DNA of 64,000 bases from Candidatus Aminicenantota bacterium (GCA_003141555.1 PLMN01000033.1:1-64000); one strand, 5' to 3'; shown: positions 51,657 to 61,128, numbered from the stretch's first letter. The notes: a model not told the origin generated them from the letters alone. A program made the numbers and translations.

Positions 51657-52553
51657 CTAGACTGTATCGGTCTCGGCCTCCGCAGGGGCTGCGGCTTTTT
51701 CCCTTTTAAACACCGAACGGAACATCATACCCGAGGTATAGAGAATGACGGCGACCACGACCCATTTCAGAACGGTCAGGGGCAGCGACTTGACGATCAA
51801 TCCGGCGATAATGACGGCGATAATCCCGAGCGAGGTCAAGCCAAAGGACGCCTTCGGGTCGTAGGCCGACGCCCTGATGAATCTCAGCCCGGCCATAGGC
51901 ATGAGGAGGGCGGCAGAACCCATCATGATCGGAAACGCGGCCCGGGGATTCATGCCCAAGGCGTAGACCAGGGCCATGCAGGGCGCGTAGATTCCGATGC
52001 CGATCGTCATGAGGGAACCCAAGACAAAGCTGACGGCGACGGCGATGATCAATTTGACTCCCGTCAGGGCCAGAGCGTCGCCGCCCGTCGGATAGAGATT
52101 CAGGAGCCCCATCAACATCGCCAGGGCGACGATAAGCAGAGCTCCTCCGAGGCCGAGGCGAATCTTTTTGACCGGCCACTTCGAGACGATTCCCGCGCCA
52201 ATGACGGCTCCCAGAGTCGAGGCCGCCATCATGGATACCAGCGTGAGAGGAGCCACCTCGACGACGGTGATGAAGATCAGCGCCTCGGTGATGGTCGGAA
52301 GACTGTGGCCGACGTTGAGGGTTCCCGGGATGAGCTTGTCTTCGACGTATTTCGTGAACTTGAAAAACGCCGTGGTCGGGGCGAAGCTCCCGATGCCGAG
52401 CGTGTCAAAGAAATTCGTGACGAAACCGATCCCGATCAAGTGCAGCCAGGGCGCCCGCGAGAACTGCCCGCGGCGGCGGTAGACGTCCTTAAAGAAATAG
52501 ATCGCGAAGATCAACGCGGTGACGCTGATGACACTAATCAAAAAATATTTCAT
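51657..52553 (-). CDS. TSUP (TauE/SafE) family membrane transporter
   Basis: A 298-residue protein with eight or so hydrophobic helices. The two repeats of the TSUP fold are visible (GIGFVTNFFDTLGIGSFAPTT and GSLMTIGIGIYAPCMALVYAL). Family members move sulfite, sulfonates or other anions. The C-terminal tail is Ala/Glu-rich. It starts 18 nt after the Ntn-hydrolase gene, so the two are likely cotranscribed; the substrate may be a product or inhibitor linked to that enzyme. Confidence 0.85.
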   Translation of the reverse strand: MKYFLISVISVTALIFAIYFFKDVYRRRGQFSRAPWLHLIGIGFVTNFFDTLGIGSFAPTTAFFKFTKYVEDKLIPGTLNVGHSLPTITEALIFITVVEVAPLTLVSMMAASTLGAVIGAGIVSKWPVKKIRLGLGGALLIVALAMLMGLLNLYPTGGDALALTGVKLIIAVAVSFVLGSLMTIGIGIYAPCMALVYALGMNPRAAFPIMMGSAALLMPMAGLRFIRASAYDPKASFGLTSLGIIAVIIAGLIVKSLPLTVLKWVVVAVILYTSGMMFRSVFKREKAAAPAEAETDTV

Positions 52554-52571: not shown

Positions 52572-53798
52572 TCACTTCGAAGCCGGGTTCTTCCGGAGAG
52601 TGTTGAGCGTCTCGCGGATGTCCCCGTTTTCGGGATTGAGCTTGAGAGAGGTTTCGTAACACCTGATCGCGTCCTCCCGCCTGCCGGTTTTCATGTAGAG
52701 ATCGCCGAGGTTTTTCTGAATGGGCGCGGAATTCGGGTAGTCCCGGGCGTAGGCCGCGTAGATCTCGAGGGCCTCGTTCAGCTTCCCCTTGATCTGCATC
52801 ATCAGGACGAGCTTGCTCACCTGACTGCTCAGTTGGGAGTCGCCGTTTTCCGGCGCGTAGGAACTGCGGATCTGGACGAGCTTCTCAATGGCTGCCTTGG
52901 TCCCTTGTTTGTCGAATATGTCTTCCAGGATCCGGGCGGGCATCTGTTCGAGCGTCTCCTCGAACCTGATCTGGGCGTTCGTCTTGCGCGGGAAGAGGGC
53001 CGCCATCTTAAAAAAATGCTTGCCCTTTTTCAGCTCCTCGGCGACATTGAATCTGGCGACCTCTTCGAAGTTGTGATAATTGTAGAGATAGAAGTCGCCG
53101 TTCGTCAGGTCGCAAATGTTGGCGTAAGCCGTCGGAATCTCTCCTTCGGCATGGACCGCAGCCAGGATGGAGCGGAAGTAATCGACCGACAGCTCCTTCA
53201 TATTCTGGAGCATCTCGGTGGCGATTTTGTACCGCGGACAGGGATAGCTTCGGGCACCGAACTCGGGGTTCGCCAGGCTGAAGTTCGTCGAGACCTGGAA
53301 CTCGCCTTGCTTGCGGATCACGAAAAGCTCGCCGTTCTTGTCGGGGCCCATGACGACCGAAGCCCCGGTCTTATCGACGAACTGCGCCTGGAAGCAGTTC
53401 CAGCCCGCCAAGTTGTGCGTCGTAAACAGGGAGATGACCTCTTCGACCGTCCCGCATGTTTCCATGGCGACGATGAACATCCACTGGTCCTTTCCGAACC
53501 CCGGCTTATCGGGATGAGCGTTCATCTTCGGATAATTGAGGGCGTTGAAATCCAGGAAGAGTCCCTGATCGTTCATGGCCCCCTGGACGCCGTACCTCTC
53601 GAACCCGACATAGGCGACCCCGTGCTTTCCTTTCTCCCCGGGCATGAAATAGATAAAGGAATCGGTCGCCGGCAGGTCCTCGGTGTTTCCGACCAGGACG
53701 AGACCTTTTCTGGCCGCGTTAAAGATCGTGCACGTCAAGCCGGTTTGGACAGCGACGATCGTCAAGATGAACACAACCGCAATGATTCTTTTTTTCAC
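52572..53798 (-). CDS. Exported Ntn hydrolase (C45/choloylglycine-like) with TPRs
   Basis: A 408-residue exported protein. Signal peptide cleavage before Cys23 (TGL-CTIFNA; sequence LTCTIFNA) would expose an N-terminal nucleophile cysteine, the hallmark of Ntn hydrolases of the C45/choloylglycine group. Supporting residues are LVGNTEDLP, QGAMNDQGLFLDFNAL and the FQVSTNFSLANPE segment. The last 100 residues form TPR repeats (NEALEIYAAYARDYPNSAPI, REDAIRCYETSLKLNPE). It probably hydrolyses amides outside the cytoplasm. GTG start at 53798 with GGAGG 5 nt upstream; an ATG nearby is out of frame. Confidence 0.85.
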   Translation of the reverse strand: MKKRIIAVVFILTIVAVQTGLTCTIFNAARKGLVLVGNTEDLPATDSFIYFMPGEKGKHGVAYVGFERYGVQGAMNDQGLFLDFNALNYPKMNAHPDKPGFGKDQWMFIVAMETCGTVEEVISLFTTHNLAGWNCFQAQFVDKTGASVVMGPDKNGELFVIRKQGEFQVSTNFSLANPEFGARSYPCPRYKIATEMLQNMKELSVDYFRSILAAVHAEGEIPTAYANICDLTNGDFYLYNYHNFEEVARFNVAEELKKGKHFFKMAALFPRKTNAQIRFEETLEQMPARILEDIFDKQGTKAAIEKLVQIRSSYAPENGDSQLSSQVSKLVLMMQIKGKLNEALEIYAAYARDYPNSAPIQKNLGDLYMKTGRREDAIRCYETSLKLNPENGDIRETLNTLRKNPASK

Positions 53799-54034: not shown

Positions 54035-55117
54035 ATGAAGAAATGCCGCGTTGGTCTTGTTGGGCTGGGACACGTCGCTCAGGTCTGCCATCTCCCGGGG
54101 TACGCGGGGGCCAAAAACATCGAGGTCGTTGCCGGGGCGGAGGTCCGAGAAGACATCCTCAAAAAAGTCGCCGGCGAATGGGGGTTCAAGGGATATACGG
54201 AGTATGAAAAGATGCTTCGCGAGGAACATCTGGATATCGTCTGCATAACGACGGGCCCGAGGTTCACGCCCGGACTGACGGCCAAGGCCGCGGAGCACGG
54301 CGTCCACGTTCTCGTTGAGAAGCCGATGGCTCTGACCCTCGCCGAGGCGAGGTCTATGATCGACACGTGCCGGGCCCGGGGGGTCAAGCTTTTCTACGGG
54401 GAGACGTATCGCTTCCTGCCCGTCTGCCGGACAGCCCGGGAAATGATCGCCCAGGGACGACTGGGAGACTTGTTTCTTCTGCTGGAGACGGTCCTCGGCG
54501 GAGAGGGCCGCGACCGGTTTCAATCGTATCAGATTTATAACCCCGGCGATCCCGGAGCGACCTTCATGGGCCTGATGGATCATGGGATCCATCTCGTCGA
54601 TCTCTTCCGGTGGATGACGGGGAGCGAAGTGGATTGGGTTTTCGGCCGCGGAATGAGGGCCGGCCAACAACCCTGCACTGAGTTTTTGACCATGCAGTCT
54701 GATCGGGAAGCCATCGGGCAGCTCCTCTATAACGAAGTGTCCTTTCCTTCCGACCTCCCCCAAGAGGGAATTTTCAGCTGGGGGGCTTACTCGGCGCAGG
54801 GCAAATCGAGCTGGGAATCCCATCCGGCCAACTTCCGTATCCACGGCTCCAAGGGCGCCCTCCGGCTCTTTCCTTACCCGAACAGGCTCTTCTTTATCCA
54901 CGGCGGCGGCGTCGAGGAGATCCGGGTGCCCGACATTCCTCACCCCCGGCACTTTGGGCTCCAAATCGATTCCTTCGCCGCGAGCGTCCTGAACGATACG
55001 GAACCGGAAATTACGGGCGAGGACGGACTCCGCGCCCTGGAGGTGATCCTGGCCGCCTACGACAGCTACGAGACGAAAAAAATTATCCCCCTTCGGGAGA
55101 GCCGACTTCCCCATTGA
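54035..55117 (+). CDS. Gfo/Idh/MocA-family oxidoreductase
   Basis: A 360-residue NAD(P)-dependent sugar or cyclitol dehydrogenase. The N-terminal Rossmann motif is VGLVGLGHVAQVCHLPG, with the conserved VLVEKPMALT (the EKP lysine). The C-terminal half supplies the substrate site (GATFMGLMDHGIHLVDLFRW, with catalytic-type Asp and His). The substrate cannot be read. It is convergent with the LarA-family gene, 1 nt between the stops. Confidence 0.92.
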   Translation: MKKCRVGLVGLGHVAQVCHLPGYAGAKNIEVVAGAEVREDILKKVAGEWGFKGYTEYEKMLREEHLDIVCITTGPRFTPGLTAKAAEHGVHVLVEKPMALTLAEARSMIDTCRARGVKLFYGETYRFLPVCRTAREMIAQGRLGDLFLLLETVLGGEGRDRFQSYQIYNPGDPGATFMGLMDHGIHLVDLFRWMTGSEVDWVFGRGMRAGQQPCTEFLTMQSDREAIGQLLYNEVSFPSDLPQEGIFSWGAYSAQGKSSWESHPANFRIHGSKGALRLFPYPNRLFFIHGGGVEEIRVPDIPHPRHFGLQIDSFAASVLNDTEPEITGEDGLRALEVILAAYDSYETKKIIPLRESRLPH

Positions 55118-55118
55118 C

Positions 55119-56357
55119 TTAGGGCTTGAATTGGACGAGCCGTCCGTTGAGGACGGCGACGATTTTCGCGTCTCCGTCGGCCGCGATCTTTTCATCGAGG
55201 TACCTCTGGAGATCGTGGATCTTGATAAATCCCAGGCTCTCCGTCTCGCGCGGGGCGAAGCTCGAGTAGAGCGAAACTCTGACCTTCGTCAGCATCTTGG
55301 AGATGGCGACGGCCTTGTGGCCGCCGAGGATGAAGTTCTCCCGGATCCGGGCGTAGAGCTTCGGATAGTCTCTCGCATCCACCATCCAGTCCTCGAACGT
55401 CTTCTCGCCGCACTTCTCCGGGCAGCTGGCCACGAGAATGACCTCTCCTCCCTCCTTGACGATGCTCTTCACGTTGTCGAGGGCCTTTTGAGCCTGATAA
55501 AGGTTGACGTCCTTCGGATGCCCTCCGGGAGACGTCACGACGATATCCGCTTTCTCGGCGATCTCTTTCTTATGGATTCGTTCGTAGACGTCGACGCCGT
55601 GCTCGAAGGCGTCGCGGGTCCGACCGGAAAACGCGGCCACGATCCGCTTGTCGTCATCCGTAATGACATCGAACACGAAGGCGATATGGGCCATGGCTCC
55701 GGCCTCTTCGATGTCCATGCGGACGGGATTATCCTCGTACCGGCCCGCGACGGCGCGGTCATCGAGCATCATCCGGTGGTTAGCCTGGATGCTCCGACGC
55801 GAGCAGACCCCCGGCAGGACGGCCTTCGCCCCCCCGCTGTACCCCGCGAAGTAATGATACTCGAGGTTTCCCGTGGCGATGAGAAGATCGGCGTTCAGAG
55901 CCTCTTCGAAGACCTCTACCGGGGTCCCCGCTGTCGTGGTTCCGATGAGCCGGCATTTCTGGTCGTCGAGGTCGACGAGCCGGCGAACTCGGCGGCAGAC
56001 GTCGTCGCCCACGAGCCTTCGTTTTTCCTCTTCCGTGTGTTTCCGATGAATTCCCAGACCAAAAATGACCTTGAGATCGACGATGCCCCCCTCCTCGAGC
56101 GAGTCGACGAGGTAAGGAAGGAATTTATAGGAAGGGCAGGGGCGCGTATAATCGCTGACGAGAAGGACCGCGCTTTTTTTCCCTTGGGCCAGCTCCGCGA
56201 GTCCGGGCGAATGGATCGGGTGCGAGAGGGCATCGAGGATGATGTCCTTTTCGTCTCGTGACGAACCGACCCCCGAATCCTCGATGACGTGAAGGAGGTT
56301 TTTGTCCGGGATCCGAAGCGTTACCTCTCCGTCTCCGTAGGGGATGTCGAGTTTCAC
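55119..56357 (-). CDS. larA: LarA-family (nickel-pincer lactate racemase-like) protein
   Basis: A 412-residue enzyme of the LarA family. The family residues are visible: FGLGIHRKHTEEE (His near 105), NLEYHYFAGYSGGAKAVLPG (His and the Lys that carries the pincer cofactor) and SIQANHRM (third His). LarA relatives racemise or epimerise alpha-hydroxy acids with a nickel-pincer nucleotide. Cofactor genes larB, larC and larE are not in the window. It lies third in an operon after archaeal-type GAPDH and PGK, so a link to three-carbon acids is plausible but unproven. Confidence 0.88.
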   Translation of the reverse strand: MKLDIPYGDGEVTLRIPDKNLLHVIEDSGVGSSRDEKDIILDALSHPIHSPGLAELAQGKKSAVLLVSDYTRPCPSYKFLPYLVDSLEEGGIVDLKVIFGLGIHRKHTEEEKRRLVGDDVCRRVRRLVDLDDQKCRLIGTTTAGTPVEVFEEALNADLLIATGNLEYHYFAGYSGGAKAVLPGVCSRRSIQANHRMMLDDRAVAGRYEDNPVRMDIEEAGAMAHIAFVFDVITDDDKRIVAAFSGRTRDAFEHGVDVYERIHKKEIAEKADIVVTSPGGHPKDVNLYQAQKALDNVKSIVKEGGEVILVASCPEKCGEKTFEDWMVDARDYPKLYARIRENFILGGHKAVAISKMLTKVRVSLYSSFAPRETESLGFIKIHDLQRYLDEKIAADGDAKIVAVLNGRLVQFKP

Positions 56358-56413
56358 GTCTCTCTCCTTGCCCAGGGATGAAGTTTCCGGGCGGATGCTT
56401 CTTTCGGTGCGGG

Positions 56414-57658
56414 TCAGAACCTCCCGGCCGATTTTTTGAGGGCCCTGACGACGGGCAGCTCCTCGCCGGACAGAAATCTAACCATGGCCCCCCCCCCGGT
56501 ACAGATGTAGGAAAACCCGTCGGCGACCTTATATTTATTCACGGCCAGGATGCTGTCCCCGCCGCCGATGACCGAGAAATTCTTCGCCGCCGCAACGTGC
56601 TCCCAGAGCTCCTTGGTGCCCCGTTCGGTCAGGGGGTCCTCGAAGATGCCCGAGGGTCCGTTGATGAAGACCGTCCTCGCCGCCGAGATTCTCTCTTTAT
56701 AAAGCCGGACGGTTTTCGCGCCGATGTCGGCAATCAAGTGATCCGTGGGCAGATCGCTGGCGTCGATTTCGACGCGCCCCCCGTCGACATAAGCATAATC
56801 CAGGGGAAGGACGATCTTGTCGGCATAGTCCTCGAGGATAGCCCGGGCCATTTCGATATAGGGCTGGAGTTTTTTTTTGAAGATAAGGATCTTCGACAGC
56901 GCACCGATATCCTTGTCCTGAGCCAATAAAAAGACTTCGGCGACGAGACCCGTACTCAGGATCTGATCGGCAACCTTACTCTTGAGGACGGTCGGCATCA
57001 TGAGAAACGCATCCTCGATCTTGGCGCCCCCCAGCAGAAAAACGCAGGGCTTATCCGGATCAGTCATTATTTTCGAAAGAACCGCGTACTCTTTTTCGAA
57101 GAGCCTTCCCATGGCGGAGGGCAGCAGCTCCTCGAACCCGACGAGCGTGGGCTGGTCGCGATGAGCCGCGGCGAAGGCGTCACAGACGTAATAGTCGGCC
57201 AGGGGAGCGAGCTTTCGGACGACGATCGTTTTGGCCTGGTCCTCGGGCGACAGATTGAGCTTCGTCTCAAAAAGAGTCATTTCCTCGGCGATGTACCGGA
57301 CATTGTCCAGGAGGAGGATCTCGCCTTCGTGGAGGGTCCGGATCGCCTCCCTCGCCGCCGGGCCACAGACGTCATCCAGGAACCCGACCTTCTTCCCCAG
57401 CATGTCCGAGAGCACCGCGGCATGCGGCTCCGTTGAGACGAAATTCTGATACTCGAGATCACCACCCTGATGCGACATCAGAACCAGCCGGGCTCCCTTC
57501 TCCGAAAGTTCCCGGATCGTCGGTACGGCCGCCGAAATTCGGCTCGTATCCCGCAGGACCTTTTTCTCCCGGTCGTAAGGGGAATTCAAGTCGAGCCGGC
57601 ACAGAACGGTCCTGGCCTTGAAATCAAAATCATCGAGAGTGTGGATTCCATACTTCAT
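56414..57658 (-). CDS. pgk: Phosphoglycerate kinase, archaeal-like
   Basis: A 414-residue kinase that converts 1,3-bisphosphoglycerate and ADP to 3-phosphoglycerate and ATP. N-terminal substrate residues are in LCRLDLNSPYDREKKV and LVLMSHQGGDLEYQNFVS. The nucleotide site is in VFLLGGAKIEDAF and FSVIGGGDSILAV, with FINGPSGIFEDP. The sequence looks more like archaeal PGK than the usual bacterial type (short DxNxP variant, SHQGG in place of SHLGRP). It is 52 nt downstream of an archaeal-type GAPDH, its pathway partner. Confidence 0.88.
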   Translation of the reverse strand: MKYGIHTLDDFDFKARTVLCRLDLNSPYDREKKVLRDTSRISAAVPTIRELSEKGARLVLMSHQGGDLEYQNFVSTEPHAAVLSDMLGKKVGFLDDVCGPAAREAIRTLHEGEILLLDNVRYIAEEMTLFETKLNLSPEDQAKTIVVRKLAPLADYYVCDAFAAAHRDQPTLVGFEELLPSAMGRLFEKEYAVLSKIMTDPDKPCVFLLGGAKIEDAFLMMPTVLKSKVADQILSTGLVAEVFLLAQDKDIGALSKILIFKKKLQPYIEMARAILEDYADKIVLPLDYAYVDGGRVEIDASDLPTDHLIADIGAKTVRLYKERISAARTVFINGPSGIFEDPLTERGTKELWEHVAAAKNFSVIGGGDSILAVNKYKVADGFSYICTGGGAMVRFLSGEELPVVRALKKSAGRF

Positions 57659-57710
57659 TTTTCCCCCTATCGCGGGCGGCTCTCCGGAATGGACCGCCGA
57701 ACCGTCCCTT

Positions 57711-58733
57711 CTATTTCATGCCCAGATATTTATTCGTCAGCGCGACGGCCTCCCTTCCGTCCGTTTGGAGAGACAGGGCCGCCCGGATGCCGTCGATCGT
57801 CTCAGGAGTGACCACGGCCTCCTGGGGGACGTTGATCGTGAAGAAAAGATTGTCTCCACTGAGAACGACGGTTTCTTTGAAGACCGCGATTTCGTACATG
57901 TCCGCGCGCTTGTTGCCCTTATCCCGAGCGTAGCGGAAGAGCGCGGCGTTGGAATTGAACCCCTTGGCGATTTCGACGACCTTGATTCTCGGATGGCTCT
58001 CAAACTGCCGGAGCGCCTCGTCGACCGTAATTTTCTTTTTGGGGGTGGCCAGGATGCTGATGATGTGGCCGTGCGTGGTCGGAACGTGGACGAGAAGCCC
58101 CGTAGCCTCGACGTGAGGCATGATCAGCATCAGGTCTTTCGCTTGATGATTGGGAACCTTCTCGACCAGGGCGACGTCGACGAGGCCCCGGTGGGAGTCT
58201 CCCGGATCGGCCACCCGGCGGATGATGGTGATGACGACGCGCTCGACGCCCACGGCCTTATCCAGACAATCGACGGCCCGGACGAAGCCGGTGGTGTTGC
58301 AGGAGGTGAGCTTCAGATAGTCTTTCCCCAAACCTTTCTCGTAGTTCGCATACCCGTGGAAGAAGACGTCGGCCACTTCGTTCTTCTCACCGCCCTGGAA
58401 TATGGCTTTGATTTTTTTGGCCTTATAGATCTCTTTGTTCTTCGCCCCGATTCCGCCCGGAGTCGCGTCGAGAATAATGTCAACCTGGGACAGCAGGTCG
58501 TCGAGGTTGCCGGCGACGGGGATTTTCTCCGCCTCGAAGGCGGGCCGGTTCTGATCCTGGAAGACATAGAGCGGGTACGGCGCTCCGCTGTCGAACAGGG
58601 CGCGGATGGAGAGGGTCGGAGCGATGTCGACGATTCCGACGAGCTCCATATCCTCCTGGCGGACCACGCCGTCCGCGAGCCTTTGACCGATCACGCCATA
58701 GCCCACCACTCCGACTCTGGCCTTATTTTTCAT
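57711..58733 (-). CDS. Type II (archaeal-type) glyceraldehyde-3-phosphate dehydrogenase
   Basis: A 340-residue phosphorylating GAPDH of the archaeal class. The Rossmann motif is VGVVGYGVIGQRLADGV, and the catalytic cysteine lies in LTSCNTTGFVRAV. Class-specific segments are VDIILDATPGGIGAKN and HVPTTHGHIISI. Bacteria normally carry the unrelated-looking class I enzyme, so this pair with PGK suggests transfer from archaea or a deep lineage trait. Start at 58733 is chosen for AAAGGAG; upstream codons are rejected. Confidence 0.92.
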   Translation of the reverse strand: MKNKARVGVVGYGVIGQRLADGVVRQEDMELVGIVDIAPTLSIRALFDSGAPYPLYVFQDQNRPAFEAEKIPVAGNLDDLLSQVDIILDATPGGIGAKNKEIYKAKKIKAIFQGGEKNEVADVFFHGYANYEKGLGKDYLKLTSCNTTGFVRAVDCLDKAVGVERVVITIIRRVADPGDSHRGLVDVALVEKVPNHQAKDLMLIMPHVEATGLLVHVPTTHGHIISILATPKKKITVDEALRQFESHPRIKVVEIAKGFNSNAALFRYARDKGNKRADMYEIAVFKETVVLSGDNLFFTINVPQEAVVTPETIDGIRAALSLQTDGREAVALTNKYLGMK

Positions 58734-58812
58734 GTGCACTCCTTTCGGGGCTTGGGACCATGGCCCGGTCCCGCCCACTCGGTTCGCCGGAGAGACCCCG
58801 GCCTAAATTTAC

Positions 58813-58834
58813 AAAAATATTCATCAATATTTTT
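58813..58834. promoter_or_regulatory. Inverted repeat in the GAPDH leader
   Basis: Nine-bp arms AAAAATATT and AATATTTTT with a 4-nt centre (CATC) lie about 30-50 nt downstream of the predicted transcription start. It is AT-only and could be an operator for a dimeric regulator or a leader hairpin. Confidence 0.45.
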
Positions 58835-58868
58835 TAAAAATCTAGGTATCAACTGCTGCACTCCAGCA

Positions 58869-58897
58869 TAAATAACAAAAATTATCTCTCTTGTCAA
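58869..58897 (-). promoter_or_regulatory. Promoter of the GAPDH-PGK-LarA operon
   Basis: On the minus strand a perfect TTGACA (58897-58892), 17 bp, TATTTA (58874-58869), in an AT-rich patch unlike the flanks. The leader to the ATG at 58733 is about 130 nt. Confidence 0.65.
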
Positions 58898-58968: not shown

Positions 58969-61128
58969 TCAGGGCTCCCGCCGGCGCTGATCCATGGCGC
59001 TTTCGAGTTGCCGGTGTCCTTGGGCATGATTCGGATCGATTTGCAGCACTCGCTGATATTCAGCGATCGCTTCGTCAAACTTCCCCTGCAATTGAAAGGC
59101 ATAGCCGAGATTATAATGAGCCTCGGCGTGATTTGGTTCGAGTTTAATGGCCTCCCGGAAATGGGTCATGGCCCCGTCAAAGTCTCCCGTTTTTCCCAGG
59201 GCGATGCCAAGGCTGCAGTGAGCGTCCGCATAATCGGGCTTGATCCGCAGCGCTTCATCGAGCTCTTCGATCGCTTCCCTGATTTTGTCCTGCTGGAGAA
59301 GAATCTTGCCTAAGTCGTTGTAAATCTCGACCCAATCCGGCCTTTGCCGGAGGGCCTTTTGAAGGTGGACGATCGCCGGGTCGTATTTTTCTTGCGCGGC
59401 CAGGGCTAGACCCATATTGAGATGGGCGTAAGGATCGGAGGGGACAAGCTCAAGGGCCGCCTTCCACTGTTCGAGGGCCTGATCCATTTTGCCCTGGGAT
59501 TGAAGCGCGGTCCCGAGGTTGTTTCGTATTTCCACGGAACGGGGTTCTGTCTGGAGCGCTTGATAATAATGTTCGACGGCCTTGGCGGTCTCGCCCTCCG
59601 ACCTGAGGATATTGGCGAGGTTATAATGCGCCTCGGCGTAATCTCCCCTCAAGTCAATCGCTTGAGAATAAGCCGCCTTCGCTTCCTCGACTTTTTTCCA
59701 GGCGTCATACGTGCTTCCCAGTTCGTAATACAATTCGGCTTTGTAGTCGAGCCGCTCCTCGGAGAAAATCCCGGGGGCGCTGCTGATCAGGCCGACACTC
59801 ATGATCACCGCCCCCGCCGCCGCCAGCCTTTTCCATTGTCGCTTCCGCAGCATCCGCCACACGGAACCCGCTCCAGCCGCGCCCAAAACACTCATGACCG
59901 GAATGATGGGCACCCGGTACCGGCTCGTCACAAACACCAGAATCAGGGATGCTGGAAACAACACAAGGGCGAGAAGGAGAGGCACGGGGATCGCTCGCCG
60001 ACAAAAAATCAGGCCCAAAAACGCCAAGGGCAACAGCACACCATACGGAAATCCAAATCGGCCGATCTTCCAGACCAACGCATCAAGCAGGCGCGACCAT
60101 TTCTTGAAAATATAGATGTCGGTGTTCCTGGGGACTTCGCGCGAACTGAAAAATTGGGCGGTCTTGTGGACGATCCCTTTCAGAAAGCCCAGGGGTTCAC
60201 TCAATATGTATTTTTCCGTTTCTTTGAAAAAAAATCGCTCCATCCCCCGGTCATCCAGAATGCCCTGCTTGACAGGAGCGGATGTGAGCTCCCGCCAGGC
60301 TAGCCCGGGACGGATCGTGATCGTCTTGTCATAATTCGAATTGTTGCCGATAAAAAAATTGATCCCTCCCGAATACGGCAAAATCGTAGCCCTGCCCGTC
60401 ACCCGATGACTCCAGATCCCCAAGGGCACCGCGATCACCAAAAACCCAAAAGCCAGGCCGGCCACTCTCGAAATCAGGGTTGCGGCTCCGGCGGATCTAT
60501 GAGCCCAGACAAGAATTAGCCAGAGGCAGGCGGCTCCCCAAACAAACAGAAATTCCGGCCTGGTGATGATACTGAGCGCTCCGGCCAAGCCCAGAACAAT
60601 GCCGTGCCAGACTGTCGGCTTTTCTTTAATCCGGATAAGCAAGAGGATGATCGCGACCATCCAAAATGCCGCCCAACCGGCGGCCAAAAGCTCCGTCTCA
60701 TAAAAGATCAGGGGCAGATAGACGGCCGTCATCAGGCCGGCCACGACGCCGGCCCCTCGTCCAAAAACCCTCTGACCCAAACGATACGTGAGCACCGATG
60801 TCATGGCGCCCAAGGCGGCCTGAATGATCTTTGCCCAGAGGATGGAACCATGGCTCAACCCGTACACGAATGAGAGAAACAGGGGGTAGAAGACGGGCTG
60901 CCAGAAAAACTCGCTCGTCATCGGCTGGCCTCCGGCCAGCTGCCGAGCCAGGCCGTCGTAGGTTCGCGAATCGACGATCGGCGTGATAAATGTCGGGTTG
61001 GCCCGGCTCTCAACCAAATAGATTCCTCTCACAAGCAGGGCGAGTAAAAACACCCCCAATCCAATCCAGCGTGCCGATGATGGACCGTCTCTCTTTAGGG
61101 TTTTTCCCTGATGCTGTTTTCTCGGCAT
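58969..61128 (-). CDS. GT-C glycosyltransferase fused to TPR domain
   Basis: A 719-residue membrane protein. Residues 1-480 contain about 11 hydrophobic helices in the pattern of ArnT/PMT-type (GT39/GT83) lipid-linked sugar transferases. The first loop holds an acidic pair position (TFITPIVDSRTYDGLARQ), and a late loop reads FVTSRYRVPIIPV. Residues about 490-719 are seven TPR repeats with clear consensus (AEAHYNLANILRSEGET, AHLNMGLALAAQEKYDPAI, AEAHYNLGYAFQLQGKFDEA). The TPRs would face the periplasm and could recruit acceptor proteins. The start at 61128 has no good ribosome binding site. It may glycosylate envelope components. Confidence 0.85.
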   Translation of the reverse strand: MPRKQHQGKTLKRDGPSSARWIGLGVFLLALLVRGIYLVESRANPTFITPIVDSRTYDGLARQLAGGQPMTSEFFWQPVFYPLFLSFVYGLSHGSILWAKIIQAALGAMTSVLTYRLGQRVFGRGAGVVAGLMTAVYLPLIFYETELLAAGWAAFWMVAIILLLIRIKEKPTVWHGIVLGLAGALSIITRPEFLFVWGAACLWLILVWAHRSAGAATLISRVAGLAFGFLVIAVPLGIWSHRVTGRATILPYSGGINFFIGNNSNYDKTITIRPGLAWRELTSAPVKQGILDDRGMERFFFKETEKYILSEPLGFLKGIVHKTAQFFSSREVPRNTDIYIFKKWSRLLDALVWKIGRFGFPYGVLLPLAFLGLIFCRRAIPVPLLLALVLFPASLILVFVTSRYRVPIIPVMSVLGAAGAGSVWRMLRKRQWKRLAAAGAVIMSVGLISSAPGIFSEERLDYKAELYYELGSTYDAWKKVEEAKAAYSQAIDLRGDYAEAHYNLANILRSEGETAKAVEHYYQALQTEPRSVEIRNNLGTALQSQGKMDQALEQWKAALELVPSDPYAHLNMGLALAAQEKYDPAIVHLQKALRQRPDWVEIYNDLGKILLQQDKIREAIEELDEALRIKPDYADAHCSLGIALGKTGDFDGAMTHFREAIKLEPNHAEAHYNLGYAFQLQGKFDEAIAEYQRVLQIDPNHAQGHRQLESAMDQRRREP

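Follow-up and report, generated by a model that had tools for sequence, protein, structure and literature searches.

Myo-inositol catabolism of the Bacillus subtilis type begins with four enzymes, IolG, IolE, IolD and IolB, and continues through a kinase/aldolase branch made up of IolC and IolJ. Two further described systems are the archaeal glycolytic pair of type II glyceraldehyde-3-phosphate dehydrogenase (GAPDH) and phosphoglycerate kinase (PGK), represented by the Pyrococcus structures 2czc and 2cun, and the LarAH6 malate racemases, represented by Mar2 (PMC7583248). A 64,000-nucleotide (nt) stretch of DNA from a Candidatus Aminicenantota bacterium (GCA_003141555.1, PLMN01000033.1:1-64000; hereafter the window, whose coordinates are used throughout) carries homologues of both Pyrococcus enzymes and of the racemase. 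The minus strand encodes GAPDH, PGK and LarA in turn (58733 down to 55119), with intergenic gaps of 52 nt and 56 nt; the contig is 104 kb long and the draft genome 3.79 Mb. A sequence-only reading had proposed this tandem trio, and the coordinates and profile matches bear it out.

The GAPDH and PGK homologues share fold family, gene families and the catalytic SCNTT motif with the Pyrococcus pair, but their clade is bacterial and sits on a long branch, and canonical glycolytic enzymes are encoded in the same genome. The LarA homologue resembles Mar2 in its catalytic and cofactor residues, and relatives from similar operons exceed the LarAH6 cut-off. Those related operons have the first four enzymes of the B. 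subtilis type in common with it, but contain transketolase, GAPDH, PGK and LarA homologues instead of IolC and IolJ.

We propose that the trio is probably a re-tooled lower glycolysis, acting on carboxylate mimics of sugar phosphates and yielding malate and ATP. With confidence a little above even, we further suggest that bacteria of many phyla convert inositol to malate and ATP by way of malyl phosphate, using transketolase, the GAPDH and PGK homologues, a malate racemase and malic enzyme. The proposal starts from directly observed gene content, conserved context, residue changes and redundancy with canonical PGK, and we infer its every reaction from genes, residues and stereochemistry.

Substrate-site residues of the trio

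A search across 84,980 species gave 411 stretches encoding relatives of the GAPDH; the loci analysed here are the best 80 (63-86% identical). The PGK homologue belongs to the PGK fold family (Pfam PGK, 375 bits against a cut-off of 27), and among solved structures its best match is Pyrococcus horikoshii 2cun. In PGK, Arg65, Arg122 and Arg170 bind the 3-phosphate of 3-phosphoglycerate (PMC7729029). A basic residue 65 (yeast numbering), taken here as the mark of a 3-phosphoglycerate kinase, is missing from all 77 PGKs of the clade: the window enzyme has Gly66 there and its 76 relatives have Asp, Gly, Ser or Asn, none of them basic. The canonical PGKs of the same genomes are basic at this position in 20 of 20 cases (Arg in 16, Lys in 4). 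Arg122, Arg170, His62, Asp23, Asn25 and Arg38 are conserved in all 76 relatives. With one of the three arginines for the phosphate gone, the site would fit a singly charged carboxylate substrate. A full canonical PGK accompanies the trio-type PGK in 45 of the 50 genomes that carry it, and fragments are found in two more.

By curated profile cut-offs the first enzyme is a type II GAPDH (NF003251, 391 bits against 185; TIGR01546, 307 bits against 232.9). Its active-site neighbourhood differs from that of the archaeal enzymes throughout the clade, the archaeal His-His pair being His-Gln in 81 of 81 sequences. Asp36 is present in 80 of these 81, whereas the archaeal enzymes have Lys. An Asp at such a position of the Rossmann fold favours NAD+, and Asp36 thus favours NAD+ over NADPH as the predicted cofactor.

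The LarA homologue (Lar_N, 212 bits) matches Mar2 (6d6z) best among solved structures, and scores 462 bits with the malate-racemase model against 304 bits with the lactate model. Its catalytic and cofactor residues D72, R75, H108, H174, K184, H200 and K298 are intact, as they are in 42 relatives, and so are the Q-K and GHK residues known from malate racemases. The LarAs tested from IolD-containing operons reach 585-601 bits, over the malate-racemase cut-off of 500. The enzyme is thus most similar to malate racemase and is predicted to catalyse a step other than lactate racemisation. To this extent the signature agrees with the sequence-only reading, which had looked beyond lactate racemisation; its three-carbon hydroxy acid, glycerate or lactate, gives way to an acid of four carbons, which by the signature and the relatives' gene context would be malate or possibly tartrate. 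A lactate or glycerate racemase was dropped as the identity of LarA on the same two grounds. The genes for the nickel-pincer cofactor, whose presence the earlier reading had made a check, lie unlinked elsewhere in the genome, all over their cut-offs: larB (contig C22, 295.6 bits), larC (C24, 425.6 bits) and larE (C30, 339.5 bits). The window LarA, the only Lar_N match in the genome, can therefore be supplied with its cofactor.

Gene context and a route from inositol to malate

The 80 loci span Bacillota, Actinomycetota, Chloroflexota, Spirochaetota, Atribacterota and other phyla. PGK is present in 79 and starts within 250 nt downstream of GAPDH in 76; LarA occurs in 43 and immediately follows PGK in 25 of these. 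A split transketolase occurs in 27 loci, malic enzyme in 16, at least one inositol gene (from a set including iolG, E, D and B) in 33 and IolD in 19. Thirteen genomes have transketolase and IolD in the locus, and nine loci combine IolD, IolE, transketolase and LarA. The fullest arrangement is a single run in Clostridium magnum: transporter, malic enzyme, GAPDH, PGK, TkN, TkC, IolB, IolD, IolE, IolG and LarA. Carboxydocella has the same run minus malic enzyme, and neither run contains IolC or IolJ. Curated cut-offs are passed by IolD (982 bits), IolE (430) and IolG (483); the IolB of these operons is a KduI/IolB member that stays under its own cut-off. For comparison, 20 canonical pgk loci from these genomes were examined, and none had LarA, transketolase or an inositol gene within about 6 kb. 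In some loci, genes for E1, E2 or E3 of a 2-oxoacid or acetoin dehydrogenase adjoin the pair or trio (L034 from Moorella stamsii, L079 from C. magnum, and L070, L081 and L085).

Read from its ketone end as CH2OH-CO-CHOH-CHOH-CH2-COO-, 2-deoxy-5-keto-D-gluconate shares its D-threo arrangement with xylulose-5-phosphate and has its carboxylate in the position of the phosphate. D-malate semialdehyde, OHC-CHOH-CH2-COO-, has the shape and handedness of D-glyceraldehyde-3-phosphate, and D-malate is likewise a mimic of 3-phospho-D-glycerate. In the proposed route, IolG, IolE, IolD and IolB of the relatives would convert inositol to 2-deoxy-5-keto-D-gluconate, whose two-carbon end the split transketolase would shift to an acceptor, releasing D-malate semialdehyde. 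The GAPDH homologue would then form D-malyl-1-phosphate with NAD+ and phosphate, and the PGK homologue would use this to make ATP from ADP, with D-malate as the other product. LarA would racemise D-malate to L-malate, which malic enzyme would convert to pyruvate, so that transketolase, GAPDH, PGK and LarA would take the place of the kinase/aldolase branch. Malic enzymes generally take L-malate; because the PGK step would give D-malate, the route needs a malate racemase, and a relative of that enzyme is present.

Several observations weigh against this route, most of them on the window trio and its genome. That genome has no match to IolD, and no inositol gene was found near the trio or elsewhere on the contig except one for a Gfo/Idh oxidoreductase. 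The window's nearest relatives carry genes of the IolN/IolO type and not of the IolD type. The 462 bits of the window LarA fall below the cut-off of 500 of NF052593, the equivalog model for LarAH6 malate racemases, and the enzyme has Phe where Mar2 has Lys, its loop reading Tyr-Phe (as in 40 of 42 relatives) and that of Mar2 Tyr-Lys. In some loci of a Christensenellaceae type, GAPDH and PGK stand without transketolase or inositol genes. These loci (L055-L061 in part, L069, L078, L086, L087 and L089) also have no LarA nearby, and their PGKs likewise lack a basic residue 65.

No transketolase was found on the window's contig. Elsewhere in the genome, in housekeeping-looking surroundings, there are genes for a transketolase of full length and for a malic enzyme that is 50% identical to one of those in the module. 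IolN was not found in 104,000 of the contig's 104,357 bases nor in the other genome stretches examined, no genome-wide search having been made. The window organism may form the aldehyde from some other sugar acid or, like the nearest Actinomycetota, by a route of the IolN type.

In another set of loci, for example L033, the place of the IolD-type genes is taken by IolN (518 bits) and by genes resembling IolM and IolO. IolN-, IolM- or IolO-type genes adjoin the split transketolase, the GAPDH-PGK pair or both in L027, L033, L043, L044 and L058. Such loci suggest a second, tartrate-type version of the route, the stereochemistry of which has no obvious fit. Here the same machinery would act on tartrate semialdehyde (2,3-dihydroxy), released by transketolase from a ketose-uronate of an IolM/IolN/IolO-type route, and LarA would epimerise the resulting tartrate. 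Because malate racemases also act on tartrate (PMC11770544), this version is a live rival, and both the IolN, IolM-like and IolO-like genes of the nearest Actinomycetota relatives and the want of IolD in the window genome speak for it. By our stereochemical reasoning, however, the carbon facing a D-specific GAPDH is wrongly arranged in 5-keto-L-gluconate and D-tagaturonate, which are also poor donors for transketolase, and malic enzyme is present in such a locus too (L027); we consider the tartrate version unlikely for the trio.

We give still less credence to the earlier idea that GAPDH and PGK are ordinary glycolytic or gluconeogenic isoenzymes beside a LarA that handles lactate or glycerate. 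The profiles do call them type II GAPDH and PGK, the PGK site retains Arg122 and Arg170, and certain lactate-group LarAHs use glycerate (PMC11770544), but the universal loss of basic residue 65, the canonical enzymes alongside, the signature and scores of LarA and the inositol and transketolase context all argue for a different substrate. The module could in principle run in reverse, reducing D-malate to the semialdehyde to build a sugar acid or cyclitol, since GAPDH and PGK reactions are generally reversible and the surroundings of the window trio yielded no genes for inositol breakdown, but we think this highly improbable, as the relatives' sugar transporters and ring-opening enzymes are catabolic and Asp36 indicates NAD+, not NADPH.

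The locus in its genome and its ancestry

Class I GAPDH and bacterial PGK, which the sequence-only reading had asked to be sought elsewhere in the genome, are both present, adjacent to each other and to TpiA on contig C30 and apart from the trio. With this canonical operon in place, the cell's glycolysis need not depend on the trio, and a housekeeping archaeal-type glycolysis was dropped as the role of the three genes.

Trio-type GAPDH is absent from 11 other genomes of the family, where two weak matches (E about 1e-5) were all that was detected, and among 395 other genomes of the phylum, nine have only a distinct type II GAPDH, 35-37% identical. That distinct enzyme (L016-L025) makes a long branch of its own. 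In the GAPDH tree the relatives form one bacterial clade, a long branch away from the archaeal enzymes, in which the window groups with an Aminicenantes metagenome-assembled genome (L026) and then with three Actinomycetota (L027-L029). For PGK and LarA the nearest relatives are again L026 and then L027-L029 where the gene is present, L027 having no LarA match. Pairwise distances correlate between the genes (r 0.56, 0.50 and 0.38; 0 of 999 permutations each). Given the shared nearest relatives and correlated distances, the three genes behave as one unit, probably an acquired one, in keeping with the earlier suggestion. The label 'archaeal-type' is no more than half apt: the GAPDH belongs to a bacterial clade of its own, which a long branch sets apart from the archaeal enzymes, and the PGKs of that clade have an altered substrate site. 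Composition is uninformative as to recent transfer, the trio having a GC content of 0.58-0.60, like its neighbours.

Features of the trio locus in window coordinates, with the evidence for each
Feature	Position	Strand	Evidence
Type II GAPDH homologue; proposed phosphorylating D-malate-semialdehyde dehydrogenase (NAD+)	57711..58733	-	NF003251, TIGR01546, Asp36
PGK homologue, archaeal type; proposed malyl-phosphate kinase	56414..57658	-	Pfam PGK; Gly66 at yeast position 65
LarA homologue near LarAH6 malate racemases	55119..56357	-	NF052593, 462 against 500; residues; Mar2
-35 box TTGACA, presumed operon promoter, -10 weak	58892..58897	-	Sequence, shuffles
AT-only inverted repeat in leader, 9-bp arms, 4-nt loop	58813..58834		Dinucleotide shuffles
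Gfo/Idh oxidoreductase, tail to tail with LarA	54035..55117	+	53% identical gene near L026 trio

The GAPDH reading frame starts with ATG at 58733, and a longer GTG frame extends to 58778. A leader of 235 nt separates the gene from its upstream neighbour on the same strand, which encodes a membrane protein with TPR repeats (58969-61128). Of the promoter that the earlier reading saw here, the -35 consensus stands, TTGACA being exact (the hexamer also appears in 38 of 1,000 leader shuffles), but the -10 is poor and a consensus scan found no full promoter. The leader of the relative L029 has a clean TTGACA...TATAAT. The AT-only inverted repeat that was likewise pointed out is confirmed: its arms (58813-58821 and 58826-58834) are perfect, and none of 1,000 dinucleotide shuffles equalled it. 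No Rfam RNA matches the trio region.

A connection of the Gfo/Idh oxidoreductase to the module is uncertain. Beyond it lies a gene for a protein that looks secreted and combines TPR repeats with an acyltransferase-like (C45) part (52572-53798), a homologue of which sits two genes past the trio in L026 and may travel with it. A TauE/SafE-type permease is encoded near the operon (51657-52553); the sulfolactate or sulfite link it brought to mind was dropped, no other sulfonate gene being seen beside the trio.

Significance and comparison with known systems

The open-access literature searched, outside which most subscription papers lie, held no description of a transketolase route from inositol, of natural malyl phosphate or of malate semialdehyde from inositol; earlier publication of the route is possible. 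Among 15 inositol-using microbes considered by Price et al., IolJ is found in none and DUF2090 in only 7 (PMC9007349). If true, our proposal would provide a missing exit for inositol users without known aldolases, finishing inositol degradation without IolC and IolJ. Many bacterial genes called 'type II GAPDH' or 'phosphoglycerate kinase' would then be misnamed, encoding malate-semialdehyde dehydrogenases and malyl-phosphate kinases. The occurrence of malate-racemase relatives beside glycolysis-like genes would be explained, and malyl phosphate, which the literature searched showed only in an engineered pathway, would have a natural route.

In that engineered pathway, which leads to 2,4-dihydroxybutyrate, the phosphate is reportedly placed on the carboxyl far from the hydroxyl. 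The engineered pathway shares malate, malyl phosphate and malate semialdehyde with the proposed module but is synthetic and, unlike the module, runs outward from malate (PMC12104201). The Thermotoga-type IolM/IolN/IolO route is represented beside the module in L027, L033, L043 and L058 by IolN and IolM/IolO-like genes, which are there coupled, unlike in the Thermotoga type, to homologues of split transketolase, GAPDH and PGK. To our knowledge, a GAPDH/PGK-type ATP step is not part of the sulfoglycolytic transketolase pathway. That pathway, too, recruits transketolase for a mimic that carries another group in place of the sugar's phosphate, a sulfonate in its case and a carboxylate here, and it is a precedent for the proposed logic (PMC11659671).

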